Made by a program: the position numbers and the translations under genes. Shown here in pieces: positions 39,788-60,110 of a stretch of 64,000 nucleotides of DNA. Positions within the stretch are counted from its first letter, which is position 1, and the number at the start of each line of letters is the position of its first letter. Below the pieces are notes generated by a model. The model saw only the letters and a program-made list of their open reading frames with translations. It was not told the origin of the DNA and did not search any database. The stretch is from assembly GCA_025451845.1 (NCBI GenBank), contig JANWJS010000017.1:1-64000 (forward strand), in the 5' to 3' direction. This DNA is from Steroidobacteraceae bacterium. Its GTDB lineage: Bacteria > Pseudomonadota > Gammaproteobacteria > Steroidobacterales > Steroidobacteraceae.

Positions 39788-41212
39788 ATGCAGACGCAGA
39801 TGTTGATCGATGGGCGGCTCGTTGCGGGCCAAGGGCCGCAGGAAGACATTTTAGACCCTGCGACCGCGGCGAAGATTACCGCCGTGCCCGCGGCCTCCCC
39901 CGAGCAGGTGAACGCGGCGGTGGCCGCCGCCGAACGTGCCTTTGTGGGCTGGGCGGCGACCGCACCGAAGGATCGTGCCGCCGCGCTGTTGCGCATCGCG
40001 GACCACCTCGAAAGCGAGGGCGCCGGATACGCCGCCCTGGAATCGCAGAACACCGGCAAGCCGCTCACCGCCGTGCTGGCGGATGAGATCCCCGCGATCG
40101 CCGATGTGTTCCGCTTCTATGCCGGTGCGTGCCGCACACCCGTGGGACCGGTGGCCGGTGAATACCAGCCCGGCTGCACCAGCCTCATTCGCCGCGACCC
40201 CGTCGGCGTCGTTGCGTCCATCGCCCCCTGGAACTATCCCCTGATGATGGCGGCCTGGAAGATCGCGCCAGCCATCGCAGCGGGCAACACGGTGGTTCTC
40301 AAGCCCTCCGAACAGACGCCGCTCACGGCCCTGAAGCTCGCCGAGGCCCTGGCGCAGCTGCTGCCTCGAGGAGTCGTCAACGTGATCTGTGGCCGCGGCG
40401 AGCCCGTGGGCAAGGCGCTGGCCTCCCATCCGCGCGTACGCATGATCTCCCTGACCGGCGACGTCGCGACCGGCCAAAAAGTGCTGGCGCTCGCAGCCGG
40501 CAATCTCAAGCGCACCCACCTCGAGCTCGGCGGCAAAGCGCCCGTCCTGGTGTTCGATGATGCCGATCTCGAGAGCGTAGTCGCCGGCATTCGCACTTTC
40601 GGCTACTACAACGCAGGCCAGGATTGCACCGCCGCCTGCCGCCTGTACGTCGGCGCCGCCATCCATGACCGCCTGGTGGCCGATCTCACCAGCGCCGTAA
40701 CCCGCATCAAAGTCGGCCCCCAGCGCGATGCCGGAGTAGAAATGGGTCCCCTGATCTCCTCGTCGCAGCGCGACCGCGTGGCCGGCTTCGTCGCGCGGGC
40801 CGCAACCCTTCCCCACATCGAGATCACCACCGGCGGCCGCGCGCGCGCCGGCAGCGGCTTTTTCTACGAGCCCACCCTCATCGCCGGCGCCCGCCAGGAC
40901 GATGAGATCGTACAGCGAGAAGTGTTCGGCCCCGTCATCTCCGTCACGCGCTTCACCGACACGGAAGAAGCCATCCAATGGGCCAATGACTCCGAATACG
41001 GCCTGGCCTCCTCGATCTGGACACGCGACGTCGGCCGCGCCATGCAGGTAGCCGCCCGGCTGCAGTACGGTGTGACGTGGATCAACACTCACTTCTCAAC
41101 CATCAGCGAAATGCCGCACGGCGGCTTCAAGCGCTCCGGCTACGGCAAGGATCTGTCCATATTCGCGCTCGACGACTACACAGTCGCACGGCACATCATG
41201 ATAAAGCTGTAG
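39788..41212 (+). CDS. patD: Gamma-(trimethyl)aminobutyraldehyde dehydrogenase, PatD-like
   Basis: A 474-aa NAD aldehyde dehydrogenase. The catalytic Glu is in [11 protein letters not shown] and Cys in [11 protein letters not shown]. Long stretches match E. coli PatD, for example [30 protein letters not shown] and the end [16 protein letters not shown]. PatD oxidises 4-aminobutyraldehyde; homologues oxidise 4-trimethylaminobutyraldehyde to gamma-butyrobetaine, which would feed the carnitine route here. GGAGG just upstream of ATG 39788 fixes the start. The putrescine-type transporter gene potF follows, so putrescine catabolism is an alternative role. Confidence 0.88.
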
Positions 41213-41244
41213 AACGGCCGGTGACGACGCACAATCCCGCTCGA

Positions 41245-41430
41245 CGGGGACTCACGTGGAAAGGTATTTCCCGGGGCGTGAAAAACAGGATGTTTTTCCC
41301 GCAGCCTACAAGGACGGATTGCTCGGCTTTCGTCCCTGCGCCGAGCCCTCCGGGCCGGCATTCGCCGTCCAAAATCGCTCCTGCGATTTTGTCACGGTGG
41401 CCCGGGAAATACCTTTCCATGCGAGTCCCC
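41245..41430. repeat. Fold-back element with 30-bp inverted termini at the potF start
   Basis: The left arm (GGGGACTCACGTGGAAAGG, then TATTTCCCGGG) and the right arm, read in reverse complement (GGGGACTCGCATGGAAAGG, then TATTTCCCGGG), match at 28 of 30 positions. They enclose about 125 bp. The right arm includes the ATG and next three codons of potF. The interior contains further hairpins. This could be a MITE-like insertion or a regulatory structure able to hide the potF start. Confidence 0.65.
41371..41390. terminator. Perfect hairpin inside the fold-back element
   Basis: AAAATCGC-TCCT-GCGATTTT is an 8-bp stem with a 4-nt loop and A/T runs on both sides, resembling a compact bidirectional terminator. 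It lies between patD and potF and could separate their transcripts. Confidence 0.5.
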
Positions 41431-42528
41431 GCCGTCCTGATTGCCACAGTCTTCGTCTTCGCTTTGCCAGCCTGCGCCCCATCCGCCTCGAGCTCCTCTC
41501 ATCGCGAAAGGGTGCTCTATCTCTACAACTGGGCCGACTACATCGGCAAAGACACCGTAAAGAGCTTCGAAGCCCAAACCGGCATCCGAGTCGTCTACGA
41601 CACGTACGACTCCGATGAAGCCCTGGAAGCCAAGCTGCTGGCAGGTGACTCCGGCTACGACGCCGTCACCACCTCCTCCGATTTCTTCGCCCGCCAGATC
41701 CAAGCCGGTGTCTACCAGCCGCTGGACCGCAGCAAGCTCCCCAACTGGAAGAATCTCGACCCCCACGTGCTGGGCATGGTCGCGTGGGCCGACCCCGGCA
41801 ACCGCTACGCGGTCCCCTACATGCGCCACGTGAACGGCTTCGCCTACAACGTCGATGCCATCCGCGCGCGCATGCCCAATGCCCCAATCGACAGCCTGGA
41901 CATGATCTTCAAGCCGCAGGTGATCTCTCATTTTGCCGGCTGCGGCGTGTCGTTCCTGGACGATGCGGAGGACGTGCTGCAACTCGCGCTCAATTACCTG
42001 CACATTGACCCGAACACCACCCGTCCCGAAGACTATCAGAAGGCGCAGAAGCTGCTCCTTTCCGTGCGCCCCTACATCCGTGCCTTCGACTCGGAGGAGT
42101 ACATGAACGGGCTCATCAACGGAGACTTCTGCATCTCGATGTCGTGGTCCGCGGACTACGCCCAGGCGGAGGCACGGGCACGCGCGGCGGGCCAGCGCGT
42201 CGATCTGGCGTTCACCGTCCCGCGTGAGGGCGCCAATCTCTCGTTCGACGCCTGGCTGATACCGGCGGACGCGCCGCATCCGCAGGCGGCGCTCGAGTGG
42301 CTGAACTACCTGATGGATCCCAAGGTCATCGCGGCGATCACCAACCGGATCCACTACGGAAACGACAACCTCGCGGCCGATCCCTACGTCGAGCCCGATA
42401 TCCTTCACGACCCCAAGATCTATCCGACGCCGCAACTGCAGGCGAGGCTGTACGGCTCCAAGGAAGTCTCTGCGCAGCTCGAACGGCTGCGCACCCGCGT
42501 GTGGATGAAGGTCAAGACGGGAATCTGA
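41419..42528 (+). CDS. potF: Putrescine/spermidine-type ABC substrate-binding lipoprotein
   Basis: A 369-aa binding protein. The signal peptide MRVPAVLIATVFVFALPAC ends in a lipobox, so it is lipid-anchored. It tracks E. coli PotF along its length: LYNWADYIGKDTV, SKLPNWKNLDPHVL, CGVSFLDDAEDV and RTRVWMKVKTG. The ligand residues Trp and Asp (SWSAD) and the later Asp (SFDAWLIPAD) are kept, while PotF Ser38 is Ala (NWAD). The ligand is a cation such as putrescine or a related quaternary amine. Permease genes potI and potH are convergent; potG is at 53 kb. Confidence 0.9.
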   Translation: MRVPAVLIATVFVFALPACAPSASSSSHRERVLYLYNWADYIGKDTVKSFEAQTGIRVVYDTYDSDEALEAKLLAGDSGYDAVTTSSDFFARQIQAGVYQPLDRSKLPNWKNLDPHVLGMVAWADPGNRYAVPYMRHVNGFAYNVDAIRARMPNAPIDSLDMIFKPQVISHFAGCGVSFLDDAEDVLQLALNYLHIDPNTTRPEDYQKAQKLLLSVRPYIRAFDSEEYMNGLINGDFCISMSWSADYAQAEARARAAGQRVDLAFTVPREGANLSFDAWLIPADAPHPQAALEWLNYLMDPKVIAAITNRIHYGNDNLAADPYVEPDILHDPKIYPTPQLQARLYGSKEVSAQLERLRTRVWMKVKTGI

Positions 42529-43423
42529 GCGCCCGCGCCTCGGCGCGCGGCGGCCGCAGGGCGGCCGGCGCCGCGCCCAAGGAGCTTTCCTCCGACTGTT
42601 CCGCCATGCGCGTCTCGAGCTCGCGCCGCTGTTCGGTGCGGCGCATGAGCCAGCCGGCGAGGACGACACAACTTCCGACGATGCCGATGATCAGGCTGGC
42701 GAGCGCGTTGATGTCGGGGCTCACCCCGAGCTTGACCTTGGAGTAGATCAGCATCGGCAGCGTCGTGGCGCCCGGGCCGGTGACGAAGCTCGAGATGACG
42801 AGATCGTCGAGCGAGAGGGTGAAGGAGAGCAGCCAGCTCGAGACGATCGCCGGGGAGATGAGCGGCAGGGTGATCTCGAGGAACGCCCGCGCTGGGCCGG
42901 CGCCGAGATCCTGCGCCGCCTCCTCGAGCGAGCGGTCTGCACCCTGCAGGCGGGATTGGACGGTCACCGTCACGTAGGCGATGCAAAACGTGATGTGGGC
43001 GAGGACGATCGTCAGAAAGCCCCGGTGCGGCCAGGAGAAGGTCTGCAACAGCGAGACGAAGAGCAAAAGCTGCGTGGTGCCGGTGATCACCTCCGGCATC
43101 ACCAGCGGCGCGGTGACCATGCCGGTGAGCAGCAGCCGGCCGCGGAACCTGGCGAAGCGCACCAGCGCGATCGCCGCCAGCGTGCCGAGGACGACCGCGA
43201 CCGTCGAGGCGGTGACCGCCACTTCGAGCGAGAGGAGGGCCGCAGCGAGCAGCTCGCGGTTGTGTACGAGCTTCACGTACCAGGCGGTGGAGAGCCCGCC
43301 CCAGACACTGACGAGCGGTGAAGCGTTGAACGAGTAGGCGATGAGCACCAGGATGGGCAGGTAGAGCACCGCGAAGCCGATGCAGAGGACCGAGACGAGA
43401 AGCGGCGGATAGCGCTCTTCCAC
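42512..43423 (-). CDS. potI: Polyamine-type ABC permease PotI
   Basis: A 303-aa inner-membrane permease with about six helices. The coupling motif EEAAQDLGAGPARAFLEITLP (EAA loop) contacts the PotG ATPase. It follows potH by 3 bp and overlaps the convergent potF by 17 bp. A basic tail after the last helix (MRRTEQRRELETRM) is cytoplasmic. Confidence 0.88.
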   Translation of the reverse strand: MEERYPPLLVSVLCIGFAVLYLPILVLIAYSFNASPLVSVWGGLSTAWYVKLVHNRELLAAALLSLEVAVTASTVAVVLGTLAAIALVRFARFRGRLLLTGMVTAPLVMPEVITGTTQLLLFVSLLQTFSWPHRGFLTIVLAHITFCIAYVTVTVQSRLQGADRSLEEAAQDLGAGPARAFLEITLPLISPAIVSSWLLSFTLSLDDLVISSFVTGPGATTLPMLIYSKVKLGVSPDINALASLIIGIVGSCVVLAGWLMRRTEQRRELETRMAEQSEESSLGAAPAALRPPRAEARALRFPS

Positions 43424-43426
43424 GGC

Positions 43427-44332
43427 TCAGCCCTCGAGCTGCCGGCCGCTCACGTGCTGGTAGATCGCGATCGGACCCACGAGCAGCACGAGGAAGGCGA
43501 TCGCCACCGCCGCGGCGACCGGCCAGTCATGGTTGCCGAAGAACTCATCCCACATCACGCGGCCGATCATGAGGTTGCCGGGGCCGCCGAGGAGCGAGGG
43601 GATGACGAACTCGCCGACCGCCGGAATGAAGACCAGGAGTGACCCGGCGATGACGCCGGGCATGGAGAGCGGCACGGTGATCTCGAGAAACGCCCGCCAG
43701 GGCGGGCTGCCGAGGTCGGTGGCCGCCTCGATCAGACTGCGATCGAGCTTCTCCAGCGTGGCGAACAGGGGCAACACCATGAAGGGCAGGTACGAATAGA
43801 TGATGCCGATGTAGATCGCCAGATTGGTGCGCATGATGATGAGCGGATGGGAGATGAGCCCGAGGCGCAGCAACAGGGTGTTGAGCAGACCATCGTTGTC
43901 GATGATCGCTTCGAGCGCATACACGCGCAGGAGGAAGGACGTCCAGAATGGCAGGATGACGATGAGCAGCAGAATGTTCTGGGCCGAGCGCGGCGCGCGG
44001 GCAATGGCGTACGCGATCGGATAGCCGAGCAGCAGGCAGATCAGGGTGGAGAGGAACGCGGTGCGCAGCGAGAAGAGGTAGGCGAGCCCATAGAGCTCAT
44101 CGGTGAAGAGGTAGCGGAAGCTCGTCAGGCTCAAAGTGAGCCGTAGGTGGTGGTCCGCGGTGCGCGTCAGGACGTCGGTGAACGGCGGGATGCGGATCAC
44201 CGACTCGGCAAAGCTGATCTTCAGGGTGAAGAAGAACGGCACCAGGAAAAAGACCAGCAGGAAGAGCAGCGGCGGCAGGATGATGAGCCAGCGCCACGCA
44301 TTTCCCGACCGGTGCAGGATGGTCGTGCTAAT
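43427..44332 (-). CDS. potH: Polyamine-type ABC permease PotH (non-standard start codon)
   Basis: A permease of about 301 aa with six helices and the EAA loop IEAATDLGSPPWRAFLEITVP. The first in-frame GTG/ATG/TTG (GTG at 44242) would cut through helix 1. The reading frame continues upstream through RWLIILPPLLFLLVFFLVP, which is the expected first helix, back to a TAG. Between that stop and the helix the only start-like codons are ATT at 44332 and CTG at 44347. ATT has GAAGGGGG 5 bp upstream and is preferred. It diverges from the TetR-fusion gene with about 20 bp between starts, so the two promoters must overlap each other or the coding ends. Confidence 0.75.
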   Translation of the reverse strand: MSTTILHRSGNAWRWLIILPPLLFLLVFFLVPFFFTLKISFAESVIRIPPFTDVLTRTADHHLRLTLSLTSFRYLFTDELYGLAYLFSLRTAFLSTLICLLLGYPIAYAIARAPRSAQNILLLIVILPFWTSFLLRVYALEAIIDNDGLLNTLLLRLGLISHPLIIMRTNLAIYIGIIYSYLPFMVLPLFATLEKLDRSLIEAATDLGSPPWRAFLEITVPLSMPGVIAGSLLVFIPAVGEFVIPSLLGGPGNLMIGRVMWDEFFGNHDWPVAAAVAIAFLVLLVGPIAIYQHVSGRQLEG

Positions 44333-44352: not shown

Positions 44353-45753
44353 GTGCAGGCTAAACTCGTCACCGTGTCAACCCAACGTCAATCCGCCACG
44401 CCAGCCGCCGGTGCCGGGCCGGGGGGCGGCCGTGCGCGCGGCTCCCGACAGCGACAGCGGCTGATCGATGCGTGTATCACCGCTCTGCACCTCTATGGGC
44501 CGTCGCGCACGACAGTCGAGAAAGTCGTCGCCATCGCCGATCTCTCGCCCGGAATCGTGCGCTTCTACTTCGACTCCAAGGACGCCATGCTGCTGGCGTC
44601 CCTCGGGTACCTCGCGGAAGAGTTCGAGAAAAAAGTTCTCGTGCCGGTGGGGCGCCTCGAGGACTCGCCGGTGCGCGCGCTGGAGCTGCTCGTGGACCTG
44701 TATCTCGATCCGCAGATCGCCAGCACCCGCAAGGTCTCGGTGTGGTACTCGTTCTGGGGCGAGGCGAGCTCGCGCCAGGAGTACCTCGACATCTGCGGCA
44801 AGAACGACGAGGACTTCGCGGTGCTGGTGCGCCAGCTCATGGAGGGGCTGATCGCCGAGACCGGCGCGCGGCACCTCGATGCCGATGGCATCGCGCTCGG
44901 GCTGATCGGCGTGCTGGAAGTGCTGTGGCAGGGGTTCGCCTTCCAGAGCGAGGAAAGCATCGACCGCGCCGCCGCGCGTGCGCGCTCGCTCGCGTATCTG
45001 CGGTCGGTGTTCCCCGGAAAATTTGCGGGGGGCGCTGCCTCGGGCGCGGATACGTCGCTGCCCATTTGGGCTTATGCGAGTGGACCTCTCCTCGCGCTGG
45101 AGCGCGAGCGTCTGCTGCGGCCGGCGTGGCAGGTGGTGGGTTACACGGAACTCGATGAGCGCAAAGGGCGAGTCGCCGGCAAGCTGCGCTACCTGGTGCA
45201 CGATCTGACCTATGCGCTCCGGGGCACGACCCCGGCCGACCTGACTTCGCTCGAGATGACGCGCGCGGGTCCGCTGTTGCTGGCGCGCTCGCCCCAGCCT
45301 GGCGGCGAGGCGCGCGCGAGCGATGCCGGCGGGTGGCCCGCAGAGTGGCCCGATCTGCGGCCGGGACGGGTGGAGGAATTCGCAGTGGCGGCCAACTGGA
45401 AGATCCTGGTCGAGCACTGGCTGGGAAGCGACTCGCCGCGGCGTCATTTTCTGCCGCCGAATCAACTCCTCGACCTCACCCCCGCAAGCGCGCAGATCCT
45501 GCAGGTCGTGCCCGAGGGGCCGGATCGCTCCCGCCTGCTGCGCTTCGAGCTGCGGGCGGCCCGCGGCGGAGTGGGGCGGGCGGCGTCCGCGCGAGGCGGC
45601 GCGAGCCCGCCGCTCGAGCGGCAGATTGCGCTGGCGGAGTCGACGCAGCAGGGTCTCAGCGGACCGCTTTCGCAGGCCGAGGAGGGCGCTATCGTCCCGC
45701 CTGCGCTGGCGCAGTTCAGGCGCTCGATCGCCACGCTGCTGCCACTTGTATAA
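44353..45753 (+). CDS. TetR (BetI-like) regulator fused to a cofactor-less Rieske-oxygenase domain
   Basis: A 466-aa protein, over twice the length of a TetR. Residues ~33-85 are the TetR helix-turn-helix (VEKVVAIADLSPGIVRFYF) and ~90-220 a BetI-like ligand domain (VWYSFWGEASSRQEY). From ~236 it follows the neighbouring Rieske oxygenase (46016): LPIWAYASGPLLALERERLL/LPAWAYQHAEMTRLEIERIL; NWKILVEHWL/DWKIAMDNYL; QILQVVPEGP/FFQVLPRGP; QQGLSGPLSQAEE/QRGLGSRSYEPGPLSQLE. The CxH...CxxH Rieske ligands, both iron-binding His and the Asp are absent, and the Rieske insert is shortened. The domain probably binds the oxygenase's substrate as a sensor. Start is GTG 44353, or GTG 44374. Confidence 0.85.
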   Translation: MQAKLVTVSTQRQSATPAAGAGPGGGRARGSRQRQRLIDACITALHLYGPSRTTVEKVVAIADLSPGIVRFYFDSKDAMLLASLGYLAEEFEKKVLVPVGRLEDSPVRALELLVDLYLDPQIASTRKVSVWYSFWGEASSRQEYLDICGKNDEDFAVLVRQLMEGLIAETGARHLDADGIALGLIGVLEVLWQGFAFQSEESIDRAAARARSLAYLRSVFPGKFAGGAASGADTSLPIWAYASGPLLALERERLLRPAWQVVGYTELDERKGRVAGKLRYLVHDLTYALRGTTPADLTSLEMTRAGPLLLARSPQPGGEARASDAGGWPAEWPDLRPGRVEEFAVAANWKILVEHWLGSDSPRRHFLPPNQLLDLTPASAQILQVVPEGPDRSRLLRFELRAARGGVGRAASARGGASPPLERQIALAESTQQGLSGPLSQAEEGAIVPPALAQFRRSIATLLPLV

Positions 45754-45859
45754 GCGCTGGATCCGGGCATCGTGCCCGGCCCAGCGCCGTCTCGGCCAAA
45801 AAGCGTGGTTTTTGTCCGAGACCCGGCCACCTGCGGCGGCCGGGCACGTCCCTGTGCCT
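45754..45859 (+). repeat. ~105-bp hairpin repeat, first of a perfect tandem pair
   Basis: The unit begins directly after the TetR-fusion stop and runs GCTGGATCCGGGCATCG to GTCCCTGTGCCT. The central stem is GTCTCGG.CAAAAA/TTTTTG.CCGAGAC. It lies between convergent genes. Confidence 0.8.
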
Positions 45860-45964
45860 CGCTGGATCCGGGCATCGTGCCCGGCCCAGCGCCGTCTCGG
45901 CCAAAAAGCGTGGTTTTTGTCCGAGACCCGGCCACCTGCGGCGGCCGGGCACGTCCCTGTGCCT
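45860..45964 (+). repeat. ~105-bp hairpin repeat, second of a perfect tandem pair
   Basis: All 105 bp are identical to 45755-45859, indicating recent duplication or gene conversion. It ends 51 bp before the 3' end of the convergent Rieske gene and would be a second bidirectional terminator. Confidence 0.8.
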
Positions 45965-46015: not shown

Positions 46016-47179
46016 CTATGCGAACTGCGCGGGCGCGTGCGGCTCGCGCGCCTCGGGAATCCGGCTGCGCAGCAGGTCGTGAAACTGCAGCATGCAGCTC
46101 TCGAGCTGCGACAGCGGGCCCGGCTCGTAGGAACGCGACCCGAGTCCGCGCTGCACGCGGGCACAGAGAAACTCGTCCTCTCGCTGGACCTGCCTGTTGA
46201 TCCGTGAGCCGAGATAGCGCAGCGCCCGCATCTCGCGCCGCGAGTCCGGATGCGCGAAACAGCCGCCGCGGATGGTGCACTTGCCGGGCCCGCGCGGCAG
46301 CACCTGGAAGAAGTCCATCTGCTCGGGAAAGATGTCGATCCCTAGGTTGGGCAGCATGCTGTAGAAGCTCCAGCGCCGCCGCTGCGCCTCCGGCAGCCCC
46401 GCGGTGGTCGGCACCACCAGGCCCTGGTAGAAGCGCTCGCTCCAGCGGCTCGAGGGCTGCTCGCGCAGGCGGCTGATGCCGCGCGCCACACCGCTCGGCA
46501 GCAGCACCTGATCCTCGTAATCCGGCGTGAACATGCGGAAGAGCCCCGGATGGCCGATGGGTACGTGGTAAGACTCCAGATAATTGTCCATCGCGATCTT
46601 CCAGTCGCAGTCCCAGTGCTCGATGTACATCGGGCCGAGGGGCTGCATATCCGCGATCCGATGCGGTGCCAGCTCGCGGGCGAGGTCGCCCCAAACTTCC
46701 TCCACTGGCGGCGGATCGCCTGCGAGACAGACGAACACGAAGCCGAGCGCCACGTGTGAGCGCACCGGCTTCAATCCCCACTGCGAGCGCTCGAGGCCAG
46801 GGAAGCTGTCGCGCTCGGTGACGGCGCGCAGCTCGCCGCTCAAGCGGTAGGACCAGCCGTGATACGGGCAGGTGATCGCGCCGGGACAATGACCCGTGCC
46901 GTCGAGAATCCGCGCGCCGCGGTGGCGGCAGACGTTGTGAAACGCCCGGATCTCGCCTTGTGAGTCGCGCAGCGCCACCACCCCGTTGCTGCCGAGATCG
47001 AGAGTCACGAAATCGCCCGGCTGCGGGATGGCATTGACGTGACAGACGATCTGCCAGCTCGGCGTGAGGATGCGTTCGATCTCGAGCCGGGTCATCTCAG
47101 CGTGCTGATAGGCCCAGGCGGGCAGTGCGCGGGGCAGCGTCGGTGGAGCGACTGGCCGGGCGGCGAGGGATGAGGTCAT
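46016..47179 (-). CDS. Rieske non-heme iron oxygenase alpha subunit
   Basis: A 387-aa oxygenase. The [2Fe-2S] ligands are Cys84-x-His86 and Cys104-x2-His107 (NVCRHRGA, CPYHGWSY). The iron site is DNYLESYHVPIGHPGL with His205 and His210, and the third ligand Asp is in QREDEFLCARVQRGL. It is cytoplasmic and probably removes an N-methyl group or hydroxylates a quaternary amine; a reductase gene is not in the window. It diverges from the aminotransferase operon with an AT-rich control region between. Its intact catalytic domain aligns with the cofactor-less domain of the convergent TetR fusion, suggesting that both bind the same compound. Confidence 0.87.
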   Translation of the reverse strand: MTSSLAARPVAPPTLPRALPAWAYQHAEMTRLEIERILTPSWQIVCHVNAIPQPGDFVTLDLGSNGVVALRDSQGEIRAFHNVCRHRGARILDGTGHCPGAITCPYHGWSYRLSGELRAVTERDSFPGLERSQWGLKPVRSHVALGFVFVCLAGDPPPVEEVWGDLARELAPHRIADMQPLGPMYIEHWDCDWKIAMDNYLESYHVPIGHPGLFRMFTPDYEDQVLLPSGVARGISRLREQPSSRWSERFYQGLVVPTTAGLPEAQRRRWSFYSMLPNLGIDIFPEQMDFFQVLPRGPGKCTIRGGCFAHPDSRREMRALRYLGSRINRQVQREDEFLCARVQRGLGSRSYEPGPLSQLESCMLQFHDLLRSRIPEAREPHAPAQFA

Positions 47180-47193
47180 GAGCGGCTCTCACG

Positions 47194-47206
47194 GTATAAT
47201 TTATAC
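47194..47206. promoter_or_regulatory. Palindrome GTATAA-T-TTATAC near Rieske start
   Basis: A perfect 6-bp inverted repeat 15 bp from the Rieske start codon. It includes TATAAT on the plus strand, so it may double as a -10. The corresponding place at 60057-60068 has the weaker GGTA-GTTA-TACC. Confidence 0.45.
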
Positions 47207-47214
47207 AGCCGTTC

Positions 47215-47249
47215 AATTCTACCTCAAAAATTTATATGAACATATAGAC
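47215..47249 (+). promoter_or_regulatory. 35-bp control block, copy 1 (shared with 60076)
   Basis: AATTCTAC-N8-TTTATAT-N3-CATATAGAC matches 60076-60110 at 29 of 35 positions with identical spacing. Its core TATATG-AA-CATATA is a perfect palindrome. The block ends 63 bp before the aminotransferase start, versus 61 bp before the TonB receptor start at the other site. It is probably the binding site of a shared regulator, with the TetR/pseudo-Rieske fusion the nearest candidate. Confidence 0.7.
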
Positions 47250-47312
47250 TCACGTGCAATCCGATGCTACCGTTGTGCTGCAGACGCTTTCACCATAGGC
47301 GCAGGAGGGGGT

Positions 47313-48641
47313 ATGACCCGAGTACTCGCGAAGAGCCAGGCTCACTATCGGCGGGCGCTGACCCGGATGCCGCTGGGGGTCGCCTCGAACTTCCGCTTCT
47401 GGGGCGAGGACCGCACGATCTACGTGAAGTACGGACGGGGCGCCCGGATCGTTGATCTGGACGACAACGAATACATCGACTATCGCATGGGCTACGGACC
47501 GGCGATCCTCGGCCACGCCGACCCGCGAGTGGATGACGCCGCCCGCGAGGGAATGAAAGTCGGTGGCGTGTTCGCGCTCTCGACGGAGCGGGAGTACCAC
47601 GTCGCGCAGCGCATCTCGAAGATGGTGCCCGCCGCGGAGCTCGTGCGCTTCTCCAACTCCGGGACGGAGGCCGTCATGGCGGCGCTGCGTCTCGCCCGTG
47701 CCTACACCGGCAAGGACGACTACCTCATCCTGGAGGGCAGTTACCACGGCCTCTTCGATGCCGCCATGTGGTACACGCCCATGGACAAGTGGACGCAGGT
47801 CGGCGACCCGCAGGTGTATCCCTACAGCGAGGGCATCCCGCTCAGCACGCGCAGCTTCGCGCATTTCGTGCAGGCCAACGATGCCAACCAGCTCGAGGAT
47901 GTGCTCAAGCGCCATGCGAGCCGGGTCGCGTGTCTGCTCATCGAGCCCATCATGGGCAACTGCTTAGGGATCGCGACCGATCCCGGTTACCTGCGCGCTG
48001 CCCGCGAGCTCTGCGACCGTCATGGCGTGTTGCTCGTGATCGATGAGGTGAAGACGGGGTTTCGCGTGGCGCGCGGCGGCGCGCAGGAATTGTACGGCGT
48101 CAACGCGGATCTGTGCACCTTCGCCAAGGCCATGGGCAACGGCTATCCGATCTCGGTGCTCGCCGGCCGCGAGGAGGTCATGCGCAAGATCGGGCGCGGT
48201 GTCGCCCACGGCGGCACGTATACCGCGCACTCCGTATCACTGGCCGCGGCGGAGCGCACGCTGCAGATTCTCGACGAGACCGACGCGCTGGAGAGAATCG
48301 CAGACTACGGGACGGCGCTGCGCCAGGGCATGAGCGCCATCCTGAAGTCACGCGGCATCGCGCACAGCTTCGTCGGCCACCCCTCGATGAGCGGGCTCTA
48401 CTTCGCGCACGACCCGCCGCGCAACTACCGCGACTGGAAGGGCAGCGACTATACGTTCTACGACGCTGCGGCGAAGGTGCTGCACGATGAGCGGGTGCTC
48501 TGTGAGCCGGACTCGCGCGAGCCCTGGTTCGTGTGCGCGGCACATGACGATGCCTGCCTCAAACAGACGCTTGCCGCGTTCGAGGTGGCGATCGAGAAGA
48601 CTCTGAGCACCCTCGGCGAGCGGCGCCAGGCCGGCGGGTGA
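47313..48641 (+). CDS. Class III aminotransferase, glutamate-1-semialdehyde-aminomutase-like
   Basis: A 442-aa PLP enzyme. VRFSNSGTEAVMAALRLAR binds PLP phosphate, VIDEVKTGFRVARGG holds the Asp that pairs with the ring nitrogen, and TFAKAMGNGYPISV contains the Schiff-base Lys. The HemL-like layout is found in many catabolic aminotransferases, so a role in haem synthesis is unlikely here. GGAGGGGG before ATG 47313 fixes the start. It opens an operon with two FAD oxidoreductases, a GcvT-like protein and PotG, and probably deaminates an omega-amino or beta-amino intermediate such as one from a polyamine. Confidence 0.83.
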   Translation: MTRVLAKSQAHYRRALTRMPLGVASNFRFWGEDRTIYVKYGRGARIVDLDDNEYIDYRMGYGPAILGHADPRVDDAAREGMKVGGVFALSTEREYHVAQRISKMVPAAELVRFSNSGTEAVMAALRLARAYTGKDDYLILEGSYHGLFDAAMWYTPMDKWTQVGDPQVYPYSEGIPLSTRSFAHFVQANDANQLEDVLKRHASRVACLLIEPIMGNCLGIATDPGYLRAARELCDRHGVLLVIDEVKTGFRVARGGAQELYGVNADLCTFAKAMGNGYPISVLAGREEVMRKIGRGVAHGGTYTAHSVSLAAAERTLQILDETDALERIADYGTALRQGMSAILKSRGIAHSFVGHPSMSGLYFAHDPPRNYRDWKGSDYTFYDAAAKVLHDERVLCEPDSREPWFVCAAHDDACLKQTLAAFEVAIEKTLSTLGERRQAGG

Positions 48642-50269
48642 GGGTGCTCGCGCCCTGGAAGCGAGCCGGCAACGGCCGCCGCGGCGGCGACCCGGCGGAT
48701 GTGGTCGTGGTCGGCGCCGGCCACAACGGGCTCGTCGCGGCCTGCTTTCTGGCGCGCGCGGGCCTGAAGGTGCAGGTGCTCGAGCGCAATCCCTACATCG
48801 GCGGGGCGGCCGTGAGCCGGCGGCTGTACGACGGTTTCACCTATTCCAACTGCTCGTACGTCTGCAGCCTGCTGCGCACGGAGATCATCCGCGCGCTCGA
48901 TCTGCCCGCCCACGGTTTGCAGATCATTCCCTACGAAGGCGGCTGCACGCTGATGCGCAACGGCGGGCATCTGGCGCTGTACGACAATCACGATGCGCTG
49001 CGGCGCGAGATCGCGCGGCACTCGCGGCGCGATGCGGAGGCCTATGACCGGTTCGCGCGCGACATGCTGCGCCATTGCAAGTTCATCAAGCCGCTGCTGC
49101 TGCGCGCGCCTCCCGATCCGACATCCTTCAAGCCCGGCGACCTGCGCGAGCTGCTGTACCTCGGCCGCCATTTCGGACGGGGCGGCGAGGAGCGGATGTA
49201 CGAGACGCTGCGCTTCTGGACACTCTCCTGCGCGGACCTTCTCGATGAGTACTTCGAGAGCGGGATCGTCAAGGCGCACCTCGCCGGCAGCTCGATCATC
49301 GGCACGGCGTTGGGTCCGCGCTCGCCAGGCACGGCCTACGTGCTGCTGCACCACTACATGGGCAGCATCGACGGTACGGTCGGGGCGTGGGGCTTCGCCC
49401 GCGGCGGCATGGGCGCCATCACCCAGGCGCTCGCCGCCGCTCTCCGGGCGAGCGGCGGGGCGATCCGCTGCGATGCGCCCGTCGAGCGTATCCTGACTCG
49501 CAATGGCCGCGCAGCCGGCGTCGTGTTGGCGAGCGGGGAGCAGATTCCGGCGAAGCTGGTCGTATCCAACATGGACGTGCGGCGCACCTTTCTCGAGGCC
49601 ATGGACCCGGCCGAGCTGCCGGAGGAGTTCGTCAGGCGCGTGCGGCACTTCAAGATCCGCGGCTCCTCCGGCAAGCTCAACCTCGCGCTCGATGGCCTGC
49701 CGCGCTTTCCGGCGATCCCGGCCGGCTCACCCTGTGTGCGCGGCGATCTGCACGTGACCGACTCGATCGACATGCTGGAGCGCGCCTATGACGACTGGAA
49801 GGAAGGCCGCTGGTCGCAACGCCCGTATCTCGACATCCTGATCCCGACGCAGATCGATCCCACCATGGCGCCGGCGGGCAAGCATTACATGTCCGTGTTC
49901 GTGCAGTACTGCCCGTACGCGCTGGCGGATGGACCCTGGACGGATGAGAAGCGCGCGAGCTTTGGCCGCACGGTGATCGATTCCATCGCCGAGCACAGCC
50001 CGGGGTTTCGCGATCTCATCCTGCACGCGGAGATCCGCACGCCGCACGACATCGAGCGCGAGGTGGGCCTCACCGAGGGCAACATCTTCCAGGGCGAGCT
50101 GACCTTCGACCAGTTGCTCTTCAACCGTCCGATTCCGGGCTATGCGCAGTACCGCTCGCCGATCAGAGGACTTTACCTGTGTGGCTCGAGCACCCATCCG
50201 GGCGGTGGAGTGATGGGCGCGCCCGGCGCCAACGCCGCGACCAAGATCCTCGGGGACCTGCGGCGGTGA
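48638..50269 (+). CDS. Phytoene-dehydrogenase-like FAD oxidoreductase (PYROXD2 type), copy 1
   Basis: A 543-aa flavoprotein. VVVVGAGHNGLVAACFLARAG is the FAD motif near residue 22 and CGSSTHPGGGVMGAPGANAA the C-terminal flavin signature. The start is GTG overlapping the aminotransferase stop. Proteins of this group are annotated as NAD(P)/FAD-dependent oxidoreductases of unknown substrate. They resemble carotenoid desaturases but occur outside carotenoid clusters. The next gene is a paralogue; the two may form a heterodimer. Confidence 0.8.
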   Translation: MRVLAPWKRAGNGRRGGDPADVVVVGAGHNGLVAACFLARAGLKVQVLERNPYIGGAAVSRRLYDGFTYSNCSYVCSLLRTEIIRALDLPAHGLQIIPYEGGCTLMRNGGHLALYDNHDALRREIARHSRRDAEAYDRFARDMLRHCKFIKPLLLRAPPDPTSFKPGDLRELLYLGRHFGRGGEERMYETLRFWTLSCADLLDEYFESGIVKAHLAGSSIIGTALGPRSPGTAYVLLHHYMGSIDGTVGAWGFARGGMGAITQALAAALRASGGAIRCDAPVERILTRNGRAAGVVLASGEQIPAKLVVSNMDVRRTFLEAMDPAELPEEFVRRVRHFKIRGSSGKLNLALDGLPRFPAIPAGSPCVRGDLHVTDSIDMLERAYDDWKEGRWSQRPYLDILIPTQIDPTMAPAGKHYMSVFVQYCPYALADGPWTDEKRASFGRTVIDSIAEHSPGFRDLILHAEIRTPHDIEREVGLTEGNIFQGELTFDQLLFNRPIPGYAQYRSPIRGLYLCGSSTHPGGGVMGAPGANAATKILGDLRR

Positions 50270-51828
50270 ATGCCTCGCGCTACGACTGCATCGTGATCGG
50301 CGCCGGGCACAACGGGCTCACCTGCGCGGCGTATCTCGCACGGGCCGGGCGGCGGGTGTTGGTGCTGGAAGCGGCCGAGCAGGCGGGCGGGACGGCAGGC
50401 ACGCGGGAGTTCGCGCCCGGGTTTCGGGCGTCGAGTTGCGCGCATCTGCTGCATCTGATGCCCGGGTGGTTGCTCGAGGAGTTGCGGCTCGCGCGCCATG
50501 GATTACGGATGGCGGCCGAGAACATGCCGACCTTCGCCTTGTCGGGCGCGGGCGCGCTGCGGATCCCGACGGACGTGGACTCGGCGGCGCATGACCTGGG
50601 TGAGGCTGACGCGCGTGCGTTTCGCGACTATGCGGCCAGGATGAGACGCCTCGCGGCGGCGCTGCGGCCGCTGCTCGAGGCGGTCCCGCCGCGGCTGGGC
50701 TCGCGAGCCTGGCGCGATCGGCTCACGCTTCTCGGCCTCGCGGCGAAGCTGCGGCTGTTGGGGCGCGCCGATATGCGCGAGCTGCTGCGCATCGCCGGAA
50801 TGTGCGTGCAGGACCTGCTCGATGAGCACTTCCAGAGCCCGCTCCTCAAGGGCGCGCTCGCTTTCGATGCGGTGCTCGGCACCAACCTCGGGCCGCGATC
50901 GCCGGGCAGCGTGTTCACGCTGTTGTACCGCCTCGCGGCGGGGAGCGGCGCGGCCGCCTCGCTGGCGCAACCCGTGGGCGGTCTCGGGGCGCTCACCGCG
51001 GCGCTCGCGCAAGCGGCGAAGGCCGCGGGAGCCGAGCTGCGCTTGGCGGCGCCGGTCGCGCGCGTCATCGTCACGGAGGACAGCGCGGCAGGCGTGCTTC
51101 TGGGATCGGGCGAAAGGCTCGAGGCGGGCTGCGTGGTCTCGAGCGCCGACCCGACGACGACCTTCCTGCGGCTGCTCGGCGCGGAGCATCTCGACGCGGG
51201 GTTTGTGCGGCGTGTCTCGCACCTGCGCACACAGGGGATGACCGCGAAGCTGCATCTGGCACTGCAGAGCATGCCGCGCTTCAGGGCGCTGGCGGGCGCC
51301 GAGCCTACCGGACGGATGGTGTTTGCTTCTTCCCTGCGGGCGGTGGAGCAGGCGTTCAACGATGCCAAATACGGCAGGTTCTCGGCGGCCCCCCTGCTGG
51401 AGGTCATCGTGCCGACCGCCGTCGATCCGGGCCTGGCGCCCGCCGGGCGGCATGTGCTTTCGGCCGTTGTGCAGTATGCTCCATACCGGATTGCTGGGGG
51501 ATGGGAAGGCCAGCGTGAGCAGTTCCTCGACACGATCCTGCAGACGCTCGAGGCGCATGCGCCGGGGTTACGCGACTCGGTCTGCGCGGCAGAATTGCTC
51601 ACGCCACAAGACATCGAGACGCAGTTTCGTGTCAGCGGCGGCCACTGGCATCACGCGGAGCTGGCGCTCGACCAGTTCTTCATGGTCCGCCCGGTCGCGG
51701 GCGCGGCGCAGTATCGCGCGCCGGTGCGCGGACTCTTCCTCTGCGGCGCGGGCTGTCATCCGGGCGGTGGCGTGATGGGGCTCGCCGGTCGCAACGCAGC
51801 GCGGCAGGTTCTGGCCCAGGCGGCCTGA
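50266..51828 (+). CDS. Phytoene-dehydrogenase-like FAD oxidoreductase (PYROXD2 type), copy 2
   Basis: A 520-aa paralogue of the preceding protein. CIVIGAGHNGLTCAAYLARAG and CGAGCHPGGGVMGLAGRNAA match the copy-1 motifs. GTG 50266 overlaps the copy-1 stop. The tandem pair with coupled translation suggests subunits of one complex or successive oxidations of the same substrate. No carotenoid genes are present, so a desaturase role in pigment synthesis is unlikely. Confidence 0.8.
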   Translation: MNASRYDCIVIGAGHNGLTCAAYLARAGRRVLVLEAAEQAGGTAGTREFAPGFRASSCAHLLHLMPGWLLEELRLARHGLRMAAENMPTFALSGAGALRIPTDVDSAAHDLGEADARAFRDYAARMRRLAAALRPLLEAVPPRLGSRAWRDRLTLLGLAAKLRLLGRADMRELLRIAGMCVQDLLDEHFQSPLLKGALAFDAVLGTNLGPRSPGSVFTLLYRLAAGSGAAASLAQPVGGLGALTAALAQAAKAAGAELRLAAPVARVIVTEDSAAGVLLGSGERLEAGCVVSSADPTTTFLRLLGAEHLDAGFVRRVSHLRTQGMTAKLHLALQSMPRFRALAGAEPTGRMVFASSLRAVEQAFNDAKYGRFSAAPLLEVIVPTAVDPGLAPAGRHVLSAVVQYAPYRIAGGWEGQREQFLDTILQTLEAHAPGLRDSVCAAELLTPQDIETQFRVSGGHWHHAELALDQFFMVRPVAGAAQYRAPVRGLFLCGAGCHPGGGVMGLAGRNAARQVLAQAA

Positions 51829-51829
51829 G

Positions 51830-53062
51830 ATGCTCATCGAGACCGAGCCGCACTATCGCCAGCCGCTGCTGCGCACGCCCTTCCATGAGCGCATGCGCGC
51901 CTTCAGCCAGGTCGACAGCTTCATCCCCTGGTCAGGCTACAGCACGGTCGATGTCTTCAGCTCCGTCGAGCAGGAGTATTTCGCGATCCGTAACGGCGCC
52001 TCCCTCTATGACCTGACGCCGATGGTGAAGTACCGGATCACGGGCCCGGACGCCACACGTTTCCTCGATCGGCTGGTCACGCGCAGCGTGGCGAAGCTCC
52101 GGCCCGGGAGGGTGGCCTACGCGCTCTGGTGCGACGATGACGGGCTTCTGATCGATGACGGCACGATTTTTCGCCTGGACGCGCAGGAATACCGGCTCTG
52201 CACGGGCGAGCGGCAGCTCGATTGGCTGCTCGACTCGAGTATCGGGTTCGATGTCGGAATCGATGAAGTCACCGCCGAGATCGCGGCGCTGGCGCTGCAG
52301 GGTCCGTGCTCCTGTTGGGTCCTGAAAGCGCTCGGGCTCGAGGGTATCGAGACGCTCGCTCCCTTCGAGCATCGCAGCGTCAAGCTCCCGGATCGCGTGG
52401 CCGCCGCCGGGGCGATGGCCGGAACCGCGATGACGGTTTCCCGCACGGGATTCACTGGCGATCTGGGCTACGAGCTGTGGGTTGATCCGGCGCAGGCCGA
52501 GTGCCTGTGGGATGGCCTGATGGAGGCCGGGCAGGTCCGCACCCTCAGGCCCGTGGGCTCGCGCGCACTCAACATCGCCCGCCTCGAGGCCGGCTTCGTC
52601 CTTCCGAACGTCGATTTCGTCTCGAGCGCACATACGCTGCGCAACGGGACGGCGCGCTCACCTCTGGAGTTGGCCCTCGGCTGGTGCGTCGATTTCGGCA
52701 AGGGACATTTCACCGGACGGCGCGCGCTGCTGGCGGAGCAGGGCCGCCCGCCTCGCCGGCGGCTCGTCGGGCTGGACATCGAAGGCACCAAGCCTGCGCA
52801 CAACGCGCTCCTCTATGGGGACCACAGGGGCCGCCGGGAGATCGGCAGTGTCACCTCGGCCGCGTGGTCGCCCACCTGCAAACGCAACATCGCGCTAGCC
52901 ATGCTGGACGCGCCGCACTTCGAGGTTGGCCGGCAGGTCTGGGCCGAGATCTATCTCAATCGGGAGCTCACCTGGGAGCGGCGGATGGTGCGGGCGCGTG
53001 TCGTCGAGCGGCCCTTCTTCGCCCCGGCGCGGCGCCGTGCGATGCCGCCCGGGGACTTCTAA
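51830..53062 (+). CDS. GcvT/DmdA-like folate-dependent aminomethyltransferase
   Basis: A 410-aa protein of the aminomethyltransferase fold. NGASLYDLTPMVKYRITGPDA is the first GcvT block, TVSRTGFTGDLGYELWVDP the second, and the C-terminal barrel contains GHFTGRRALLAEQGRPPRRR. It would transfer a methyl or methylene group from an N- or S-methylated substrate to tetrahydrofolate, as glycine cleavage T-protein, dimethylglycine dehydrogenase and DMSP demethylase do. In this operon it is a candidate demethylase or one-carbon acceptor for the FAD oxidoreductases. Confidence 0.83.
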   Translation: MLIETEPHYRQPLLRTPFHERMRAFSQVDSFIPWSGYSTVDVFSSVEQEYFAIRNGASLYDLTPMVKYRITGPDATRFLDRLVTRSVAKLRPGRVAYALWCDDDGLLIDDGTIFRLDAQEYRLCTGERQLDWLLDSSIGFDVGIDEVTAEIAALALQGPCSCWVLKALGLEGIETLAPFEHRSVKLPDRVAAAGAMAGTAMTVSRTGFTGDLGYELWVDPAQAECLWDGLMEAGQVRTLRPVGSRALNIARLEAGFVLPNVDFVSSAHTLRNGTARSPLELALGWCVDFGKGHFTGRRALLAEQGRPPRRRLVGLDIEGTKPAHNALLYGDHRGRREIGSVTSAAWSPTCKRNIALAMLDAPHFEVGRQVWAEIYLNRELTWERRMVRARVVERPFFAPARRRAMPPGDF

Positions 53063-53063
53063 A

Positions 53064-54209
<1,146 letters not shown>

Positions 54210-58505: not shown

Positions 58506-58514
58506 GGGAGCGGC

Positions 58515-60053
58515 TTACTCGTCGGTGATGTCGTCCGTCAGCACGGCTTTGCGACGAGCGATGAAATCAAGCATGGCCTCGTCCCGCGCGGGGTCGATGC
58601 CGGGGTCCTGATACTCCGCCAGCATCCGCTTCCACACGCGGTTGGCACGCTGCTCCGCCGTGAGGCGTCCTTCCTCCGACCATTGCTCGTAGGAGCAGTA
58701 GTCGGCGATGGTCGACTGATAGAAGGCCGTCTCGAAGTTTTCCTGCGTGTGCGCGCAGCCGAGGAAGTGGTTTCCGGGACCGACCTCCCGGATCGCATCG
58801 AGTGCCTGGCCGCGCGCCGACATGTCCATGCCCTGCGCGAGGCTTTGCATCATGGCGCATTGATCGGCGTCCATCACGAACTTCTCGTAACTCGCGACCA
58901 GTCCGCCTTCCAGCCACCCTGCCGCATGCGTCACGAGATTCACGCCGGCGAGCAGGGTGGGCAACAGTGTGTGCGCGCTCTCGTAGCCTGCCTGCGCATC
59001 GGCAGTCTTCGCCGCGCACAGGGACCCGCCGCTGCGGCAGGGCACCCCGAGGCGCCGGGCAAGCTGCGCCGTGGCGAAGATCATCTGCGTCGCTTCCGGA
59101 GTGCCGAAGGTCGGCGCCCCCGTGCGCATGGAAATCGCGCCGACGAAAGAGCCGAGAATCACCGGCGCTCCCGGCCGCACGAGCTGGGTGAGCGCCATCC
59201 CGCACAGCGCCTCGGCGAGGAGCTCGGCCATGCATCCGGCCGGTGTCACCGGGCCCATGGCGCCGGCGAGCATGGCGGGTACGACGATCGTGCCCTGGTT
59301 GTGGCTGGCGAACTGCCGCAGTGCACCGAGCATCCTGCCGTCGAAGACGAGCGGCGAATTCGAGTTGATGTTGCCGAGGACCACAGGATGGGTCTCGAGG
59401 TACTCGGCGCCGAAGAGGACCTGCGCGAGGGCGACGGCATCGGAGGCGTGTCCGGCGGTCTCGGGCGTCGCCTCGCAGCCCTGATCCGAGTACCGGAAGA
59501 AGGCGTACTGCACATCGAGATGGCGCTTGTTGGGGGGTATCTCCATCGGCTCGCACATGCTGCCCCCGGAGAAGTGGATCGCGGGCGCCATCTGCGCGAG
59601 CTTGATGAAGTTTTGCAGATCCTCGAGGGTCCCATAGCGGCGGCCGCGGTCGATGTCGGAAACAAATGGTGGGCCACCGACCGGAGAGAATACGGTGGCA
59701 TCTCCACCGAAGAGGACGTTACGGGCGGGGTTGCGGGCGAAAAGGGTGAATTCGGACGGAGCGGTCGCGAGCAGCTGGCGCGCCAGGCCTCGGGGAATGC
59801 GCACTCTCTCGCCGCGCACGTCCGCCCCCGCACGCTGCCAGAGACACAGCGATTCCGGATCGCGCCGCAGCTCGATGCCGATCTCCTCGAGGATGGTTTC
59901 CGCGTTCGCCTCGATGATCTCGATCGCCTCGGTGCTCAGGAGCTCCACGGGCGGCAGCCGCCGCCGGATATAGGGGTACTTGGCGGGCGGGGTGCGCGCC
60001 CGCGCACGTCTGCTTTCGCGGGCACGGCGCGTCGGAATGGCGGGCTCGCTCAT
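58515..60053 (-). CDS. MttB/MtgB-superfamily methyltransferase (non-pyrrolysine), copy 2
   Basis: A 512-aa relative of the protein at 8454, sharing the order of motifs: ILEEIGIELRRDPESL, FTLFARNPARNVLFGG, RYSDQGCEA, LGNINSNSPLVFDGRML and the late LVTHAAGWLEGGLVASYEKFV. No amber codon interrupts it. It would demethylate a quaternary amine with a corrinoid acceptor that is not encoded here. It is first in the operon with the TMADH homologue (9-bp gap) and the CocE hydrolase. Start ATG 60053 follows the AT-rich control block shared with the 47-kb region. Confidence 0.85.
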   Translation of the reverse strand: MSEPAIPTRRARESRRARARTPPAKYPYIRRRLPPVELLSTEAIEIIEANAETILEEIGIELRRDPESLCLWQRAGADVRGERVRIPRGLARQLLATAPSEFTLFARNPARNVLFGGDATVFSPVGGPPFVSDIDRGRRYGTLEDLQNFIKLAQMAPAIHFSGGSMCEPMEIPPNKRHLDVQYAFFRYSDQGCEATPETAGHASDAVALAQVLFGAEYLETHPVVLGNINSNSPLVFDGRMLGALRQFASHNQGTIVVPAMLAGAMGPVTPAGCMAELLAEALCGMALTQLVRPGAPVILGSFVGAISMRTGAPTFGTPEATQMIFATAQLARRLGVPCRSGGSLCAAKTADAQAGYESAHTLLPTLLAGVNLVTHAAGWLEGGLVASYEKFVMDADQCAMMQSLAQGMDMSARGQALDAIREVGPGNHFLGCAHTQENFETAFYQSTIADYCSYEQWSEEGRLTAEQRANRVWKRMLAEYQDPGIDPARDEAMLDFIARRKAVLTDDITDE

Positions 60054-60075
60054 GGCGGTAGTTATACCGCTATTT

Positions 60076-60110
60076 AATTCTACGCCCAAAATTTATATAG
60101 TCATATAGAC
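60076..60110 (+). promoter_or_regulatory. 35-bp control block, copy 2 (shared with 47215)
   Basis: AATTCTAC-N8-TTTATAT-N3-CATATAGAC with the same spacing as the copy at 47215-47249. The core TATAT-AGTC-ATATA is an inverted repeat. It sits between the divergent MttB and TonB receptor genes, 61 bp before the receptor start, and could act on both. Confidence 0.7.

Follow-up and report, generated by a model that had tools for sequence, protein, structure and literature searches.

The window analyzed here is a stretch of 64,000 nucleotides, to which all coordinates refer. At 44353..45753 on the plus strand it encodes a protein of 466 amino acids in which a BetI-like TetR repressor is joined to a degenerate Rieske oxygenase (RO) domain. 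This arrangement raises the question of what a repressor does with the remains of an oxygenase: whether the additional domain reads the compound consumed by the target enzyme, reports something else or senses nothing. The reading that we consider fairly probable is that the protein represses genes for the catabolism of an N-methylated amine and that its RO-derived part is an accessory sensor, which across the family would respond to metal or redox state rather than to substrate.

The open reading frame is unbroken, runs over 466 codons from a GTG start and has a coding-type composition (codon-position GC 0.74/0.51/0.83). Since the orthologs are also read in one frame, two separate genes or a frameshift in the window are ruled out. 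The first-pass annotation had called the N-terminal half BetI-like, and this was borne out by a TetR_N helix-turn-helix (residues 38-82, 44464..44598, plus strand; PF00440, 2.8e-5; 24.3 bits against a Pfam gathering score of 24) and a BetI-type TetR C-terminal dimer/ligand domain, TetR_C_6 (residues 107-220, 44671..45012, plus strand; PF13977, 4.1e-11; 43.5 bits against 27). The NCBIfam BetI model (TIGR03384) matched at 1.7e-18, its 67 bits lying under the equivalog cut-off of 201.3. The Pfam matches of the window protein included neither a wHTH nor a PLP aminotransferase fold, the features of MocR-like regulators.

The C-terminal half consists of two remnants. The first comprises the RO N-terminal helix and the Rieske domain (about residues 235-300, 45055..45252, plus strand), as indicated by alignment with other fusions and by BLASTP (44% over 32 amino acids); the second is a shortened catalytic (helix-grip) domain without the 2-His-1-carboxylate site (45340..45750, plus strand). 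The C-terminal blocks had been assigned to the catalytic domain at first; their RO order holds, but the first of them, LPIWAY...RPAWQVVG, corresponds to the RO N-terminus preceding the Rieske domain. Against the adjacent RO, BLASTP aligned residues 235-266 (2e-6) and residues 369-464 (0.003). The C half matched Pfam Ring_hydroxyl_A under the gathering score (0.0034) and no NCBIfam model, and the window protein had no Pfam Rieske match. With the window's C domain alone, hhalign covered only 28 residues of the RO family, and phmmer against PDB returned only chance matches (0.5 and up); such single-sequence tests are too weak to prove homology. The family provided a much clearer answer. A C-domain profile built from nine sequences matched the adjacent-RO family at 2.4e-30 over 264 columns with both domains in order, it found CntA in PDB at 2e-22, and eight of the nine members matched Pfam Rieske. 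Thus, the RO homology of the C domain is convincing because the family-level profiles match, whereas the window sequence alone is weak evidence and stays under the Pfam threshold.

Structure prediction agreed with the profiles. The AlphaFold2 model of the ortholog L022 (mean pLDDT 91.5, pTM 0.62) matched stachydrine demethylase (3e-15), which we take to be Stc2, and then CntA (4e-15) in Foldseek, and all of the 50 PDB matches listed, including 7yls, were Rieske-type oxygenases by name. The model of the window protein had a mean pLDDT of 84.7 and a pTM of 0.58; the catalytic fold is kept over residues 341-400 (pLDDT 92-97), and the Rieske remnant at residues 261-300 is of low confidence (48-64). 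Its best Foldseek match was 3e7q, a putative transcriptional regulator (2e-7), TetR-type regulators were matched, and CntA ranked seventh (1.1e-5). The earlier description of a TetR repressor with an RO-fold C-terminal domain was therefore upheld by the family profile and by the models.

In the window protein the three iron ligands have gone, as the first-pass annotation had stated, and the catalytic iron site is thus absent beside an intact RO gene. The loss of all Rieske cysteines and histidines was also reported there, which is correct for three of the four ligands; the second Rieske His is kept as residue 283. Tyr280 occupies the position of the second Rieske Cys, near 45150, 42 residues are missing in frame, among them the first Cys and the shifted His described below, and a further gap of five residues follows downstream. 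The ligand row of the alignment accordingly reads ---YH, and the CxH...CxxH set of a [2Fe-2S] site is not present. The 42-residue gap is unique to the window's member among 57 degenerate fusions, as might be expected if it were an assembly artifact. Such an error appears highly improbable, however: the gap is in frame and is accompanied by the separate 5-residue gap and the Cys-to-Tyr change, as under relaxed selection on the Rieske part.

Full fusions were present in 16 of 58 same-genus genomes (the window's own included, and one split over two contigs) and the TetR half alone in eight, several of the genomes being incomplete. We also scanned a one-genome-per-species collection with the fusion profile and with patterns from the TetR half, and examined 80 of 144 relatives; by record label these were mostly gammaproteobacterial or proteobacterial metagenome genomes, with some Steroidobacteraceae and some alphaproteobacterial ones. 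All sources, which overlap, were pooled, 10 loci repeating G-handle loci were left out, and 69 fusions with at least 100 residues past the TetR match were aligned. Among them, 57 were degenerate (the window's included), 10 had intact motifs and two (L108 and L109) were too degraded to place and are excluded from the counts. In these last two genes the TetR part is followed by about 130-165 residues in which BLAST sees no RO any more. Five of the 57 degenerate fusions are truncated where their contig ends, and in L079 a stop interrupts the RO domain.

The ten intact fusions (L038, L039, L040 and L113-L119) each join a TetR repressor to an RO with intact metal-site motifs, namely both Rieske pairs and E-x2-H-x4-H. 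In these a single chain may combine the repressor with an active enzyme. The two that were tested, L118 and L115, scored above all four Pfam cut-offs; L115-L117 and L119 are mutually 95-96% identical, and three intact fusions come from records labeled Inquilinus limosus. At least three were found in 369 genomes of the class (four best candidates per genome scored), and none among the three best candidates per genome in 398 genomes of the phylum, a scan that likewise missed the window's own fusion. Fusions may thus be missed in these scans, since few candidates per genome were scored and the window's fusion was unlisted. A single scan of viral contigs with P0001 gave no relative, and spread of the fusion by viruses was set aside on this basis. 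Regulators with an enzyme-derived domain are already known. The TetR-RO fusion is real and conserved, and no description of it was found in the literature searched (mostly without subscription papers), which to this extent bears out the initial remark that no regulator of such architecture had been described.

The metal sites of the family revealed where the constraint lies. Both catalytic histidines together occurred in none of the 57 degenerate fusions, three of which end before that point; the first was present in one of the 54 with sequence there and the second in none of 32, and the iron-site residues are variable or deleted. On the other hand, the Rieske loops of all 56 degenerate fusions besides the window's contain two Cys and either two (49 members) or three His (7 members). 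The canonical first Rieske His survives in only 8 of 57, and a His at C+5 is found in 56 of 57; the common state is therefore C-x4-H...C-x2-H. L085 and L098 have lost the last Rieske His and have a second His in loop 1. Ranked by conservation over the 313 domain columns without the window's row, C1, the shifted His and C2 took places 1-3, the last Rieske His place 12 and the canonical first His place 237. The hypergeometric figure for this site treats the columns as independent, and conservation is common for Cys and His in any case. It is the rewired Cys/His set of the Rieske loops, and not the catalytic iron site, that is best conserved in the degenerate domain. The absence of both metal sites thus describes the window's member only, an exception in its family and not its type, and the view that this absence is what the architecture is about is not supported.

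This distribution bears on what the domain could sense. The first-pass annotation had proposed that the dead RO pocket binds the compound consumed by the target enzyme and thereby induces the operon. In its favor, an RO fold does lie beside an intact RO, the fold matches the quaternary-amine oxygenases CntA and stachydrine demethylase, the catalytic-fold remnant is the well-modeled part of the window's C domain, and EnuR/GabR-type regulators are reported to sense pathway compounds via an enzyme-derived domain (PMC8739950, PMC6917764). However, the window's clade lacks a long part of the catalytic domain, the conserved site is that of the Rieske domain and not the varying former iron site, and a ligand domain of the BetI type is already available in the TetR half. 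Since the Cys/His set is best conserved and the iron site variable, a metal or redox sensor is favored over a substrate-pocket sensor in the family, and we regard the latter as rather unlikely. Ligand sensing by the C domain is possible and is least improbable for the window's own member.

Alternatively, the C domain might sense nothing and act as an oligomerization or docking module, for example for the RO or its reductase. The domain is absent in several relatives, and the site-less domain of the window still keeps 27 of its 32 remaining conserved columns (43 in all), or 0.84, both of which would suit such a role; yet the constant two Cys and two or three His amid a variable Rieske part would be left unaccounted for. 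The conserved Cys and His could themselves be structural rather than sensory. We regard a purely structural or assembly role, too, as rather unlikely.

With regard to the origin of the domain, we constructed a rooted tree of 55 RO-domain rows. The degenerate domains formed one clade (100/100) and the neighboring ROs another (100/100), and the degenerate domains joined five of the seven intact fusion domains (89/90), whose position an earlier quick RO tree had left unsettled. The His at C+5 is present in these five and absent from the 30 stand-alone ROs compared; it is also absent from the other two intact fusions, L040 and L114, which group with stand-alone ROs and therefore point either to another fusion event or to a swap of domains. 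Among the TetR halves, those of the degenerate and the intact fusions fell into one clade (93/92); an earlier quick TetR tree had placed other BetI-like proteins among the intact fusions. In AU tests, grouping the degenerate domains with all seven intact fusion domains as a single RO clade was rejected (p 8e-5), and p was 0.042 for a grouping with other stand-alone ROs and 0.077 for one with the neighboring ROs, so that a sister position to the latter is not firmly rejected. The possibility that the C domain is a duplicate of the adjacent RO is disfavored because the two form separate clades. On these trees, with moderate support and long branches, it is likeliest that the C domain stems from an intact TetR-RO fusion that lost catalysis and that L040 and L114 have a history separate from the other fusions.

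TetR-only forms nest inside the degenerate clade, and at least four label changes are forced. Three of the 15 TetR-only rows are doubtful (L111 at a contig end, L112 frame-shifted and L120 distant); after dropping these, three supported groups of clean TetR-only forms were left. The synteny count included 14 TetR-only loci, L111 and L112 among them. When eight C domains were used as tblastn queries, L112 alone still had a remnant at the expected position. In L093, L099, L105 and L107 the TetR-only protein extends 58-95 residues past the TetR match.

Selection was assessed by dN/dS, for which the 25 pairs listed are those with the lowest synonymous difference. Five of them have a C-domain dN below 0.23, and here dN/dS was 0.19-0.33 in the C domain and 0.13-0.27 in the TetR half. 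The other listed pairs had C-domain values up to 1.02, and the six listed pairs of the window 0.41-0.67, with dS close to saturation in genes so rich in GC. Close pairs thus show purifying selection on the C domain, but the branch of the window's member does not; in most listed pairs the C half evolves faster than the TetR half. One might regard the RO half as a decaying passenger since the fusion, with the window's copy decayed further. The domain losses, the in-frame deletions, the stop in L079, the frame shift in L112 and the faster C half are in line with this, as is the window's 0.84 retention of conserved columns, the tenth lowest among 51 members. Against it stand the dN/dS of the five least diverged listed pairs, the Cys/His set kept in 56 of 56 and the C-domain distances of the window's member, which only slightly exceed those of its neighbors L021 and L054. 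We consider a mere relic quite improbable.

The surroundings of the gene suggest what the repressor may control. A convergent, GbcA-like RO gene with intact motifs lies at 46016..47179 on the minus strand (Pfam Rieske 1.3e-19, Ring_hydroxyl_A 3.2e-39); it matched the GbcA model at 2e-46, yet under the cut-off. A class III aminotransferase gene at 47178..48641 (plus strand), whose true start is probably near 47313, is the first gene of the likely target operon, the rest of which, by synteny, comprises two FAD amine-oxidase-fold genes, a GcvT-like folate enzyme and a PotG-like ATPase (48638..54209, plus strand). Divergent from the fusion gene are genes for a PotF-like binding protein (plus strand) and PotI/PotH-like permeases (minus strand) at 41077..44242. 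Further away, an MTTB-family methyltransferase gene (58515..60089, minus strand; Pfam MTTB 1.5e-213), a possible second target, is followed by a gene for an OYE-type FMN oxidoreductase (56406-58505; Oxidored_FMN 1.9e-69). That orthologous fusions might stand beside Rieske genes had been suggested at the outset and was confirmed: among 56 degenerate-fusion loci, many of them cut short, 45 have an RO gene, 53 a PotH-like gene, 42 the aminotransferase gene and 43 both PotH and RO genes. Among 10 intact-fusion loci, five have a PotI-like gene and one a GcvT-like gene.

Two side observations concern this region and its genome. Another RO gene and a BetI-like TetR gene stand head-to-head (G000:C11 about 98161-100163; L140 2162-2896, 2824-4164), an unfused counterpart of the pair joined in the fusion. 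Between the fusion and RO genes, at 45755-45964, a 105-base unit occurs twice in perfect head-to-tail repetition; with 40 of 103 candidates scored, a 103-base query of it matched the genome at least 43 times, in 41 cases over at least 88 bases with 79-100% identity, and the unit is therefore a REP- or MITE-like dispersed element.

A conserved palindrome provided a candidate operator. With no more than one mismatch allowed, the sequence TATATGnnCATATA was found between the divergent RO and aminotransferase genes in 44 of 52 loci (exactly in 24; the remaining eight have 2-4 mismatches) and in 0 of 1040 mononucleotide shuffles, the consensus having been derived from these 52 loci themselves, TetR-only loci included. 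In the window the proposed operator is TATATGAACATATA at 47233..47246, and a second, weaker operator-like site with one mismatch lies between the MTTB-family and TonB receptor genes (60094..60107). When the pattern was lengthened slightly and up to one mismatch was tolerated, it matched the window's genome in two places, 47232 and 60093, and its reversed control in one; the RO site, being exact, is thus notable, and the site at 60093 is not by itself. Over the 58 genus genomes the exact form gave nine sites in eight genomes, the control none, and eight of these sites (seven genomes) are directly upstream of the RO gene. The ninth, in G054, is located between an OYE-type gene and an MTTB-like gene (52% identical to 56406-58505 and 26% identical to 58515-60089, respectively), which speaks for the MTTB region as a second target. 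In two genomes (window 56406-60108 and L128 6194-9915), MTTB-family and OYE-type genes have a copy of the palindrome beside them, and corrinoid-type and oxygenase-type demethylation may share one switch.

All eight genomes with an exact site carry the BetI-like TetR, and TetR-only loci have the exact site too; we therefore infer that it is probably the TetR half that recognizes and binds the palindrome, and the conservation of the latter in the RO/aminotransferase gap makes a local repressor likely. At most two mismatches allowed, the palindrome occurred in none of 74 fusion/PotH promoters, and the regulator thus does not obviously control itself or the PotH transporter operon. L032, which has a similar cluster and a TetR of 30% identity, lacked the palindrome at up to three mismatches, weak evidence given the 0.9 sites expected by chance.

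Taken together, we suggest that a BetI-like TetR represses a cluster of genes for the breakdown of an N-methylated or quaternary amine, a substrate class indicated by the presumed targets (RO, GcvT-like and perhaps MTTB) and by the fold relatives CntA and stachydrine demethylase. The TetR half would sit as a dimer on TATATGnnCATATA between the divergent RO and aminotransferase genes, perhaps also on the weaker copy near the MTTB gene, and block transcription until an inducer, probably read by the BetI-type domain, is present. Some relatives have the cluster and the palindrome and yet lack the C domain, which is therefore dispensable for repression. An RO would first have been fused intact to the repressor and then have lost catalysis, and in the family the resulting domain would be an accessory sensor around the rewired Cys/His site, which most likely holds a [2Fe-2S] cluster or zinc; it could inform the repressor about redox, oxygen or metal state, on which the repressed enzymes depend. 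In the window's species the site would have been deleted secondarily. Without it, the metal reading is inapplicable to the window protein, whose C domain would then be only a ligand-binding or structural module. A more specific version, which we put forward tentatively and think not very likely, is that the dead RO with its C-x4-H/C-x2-H [2Fe-2S] cluster acts as a gauge of electron flux on the TetR. It would draw on the same donor as the real oxygenase, so that an idle enzyme leaves the decoy reduced and repression in place and turnover leaves it oxidized; it would have arisen from the intact fusion that still exists, and the window's species would have lost it.

The family offers an enzyme-to-sensor series: stand-alone ROs, intact-motif fusions, dead fusions with shifted Cys/His, the site-less member of the window and TetR-only forms. 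In our judgement, the conversion of an enzyme to a regulatory domain can be traced in this way in few regulator families. If the site holds a cluster, the protein would be a one-component redox sensor made from an oxygenase, and the ligands in its Rieske fold would differ from the usual set. The proposed operator makes the regulon directly testable.

Among known systems, the choline-responsive TetR repressor BetI shares TetR_N, TetR_C_6 and the amine catabolism context with the fusion, which differs in its extra domain of about 230 residues, its gene cluster and its score (67 bits versus a cut-off of 201). CntA, stachydrine demethylase and GbcA match the C-terminal domain in fold and order of elements; in contrast to them, the fusion lacks the mononuclear iron, has a Rieske site that is rewired (relatives) or deleted (window) and is joined to a repressor. 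The MocR/GabR/EnuR regulators, which consist of a wHTH and an aminotransferase fold, likewise place an enzyme-derived effector domain beside their own pathway, as reported for EnuR (PMC8739950); GabR is a further precedent for an effector domain with an enzyme fold (PMC6917764). This is an analogy only: they are GntR-type, use a PLP enzyme fold and keep the cofactor, and no homology to the fusion was seen. Finally, in tetralin degradation the reduced form of the Rieske-type ferredoxin ThnA3 is reported to exert negative control via ThnY (PMC3771892). Transcription is here subject to feedback from the redox components of a dioxygenase system, a precedent for redox input, although ThnY and ThnA3 are separate proteins that act with a LysR activator and ThnY is a ferredoxin reductase, not an oxygenase.
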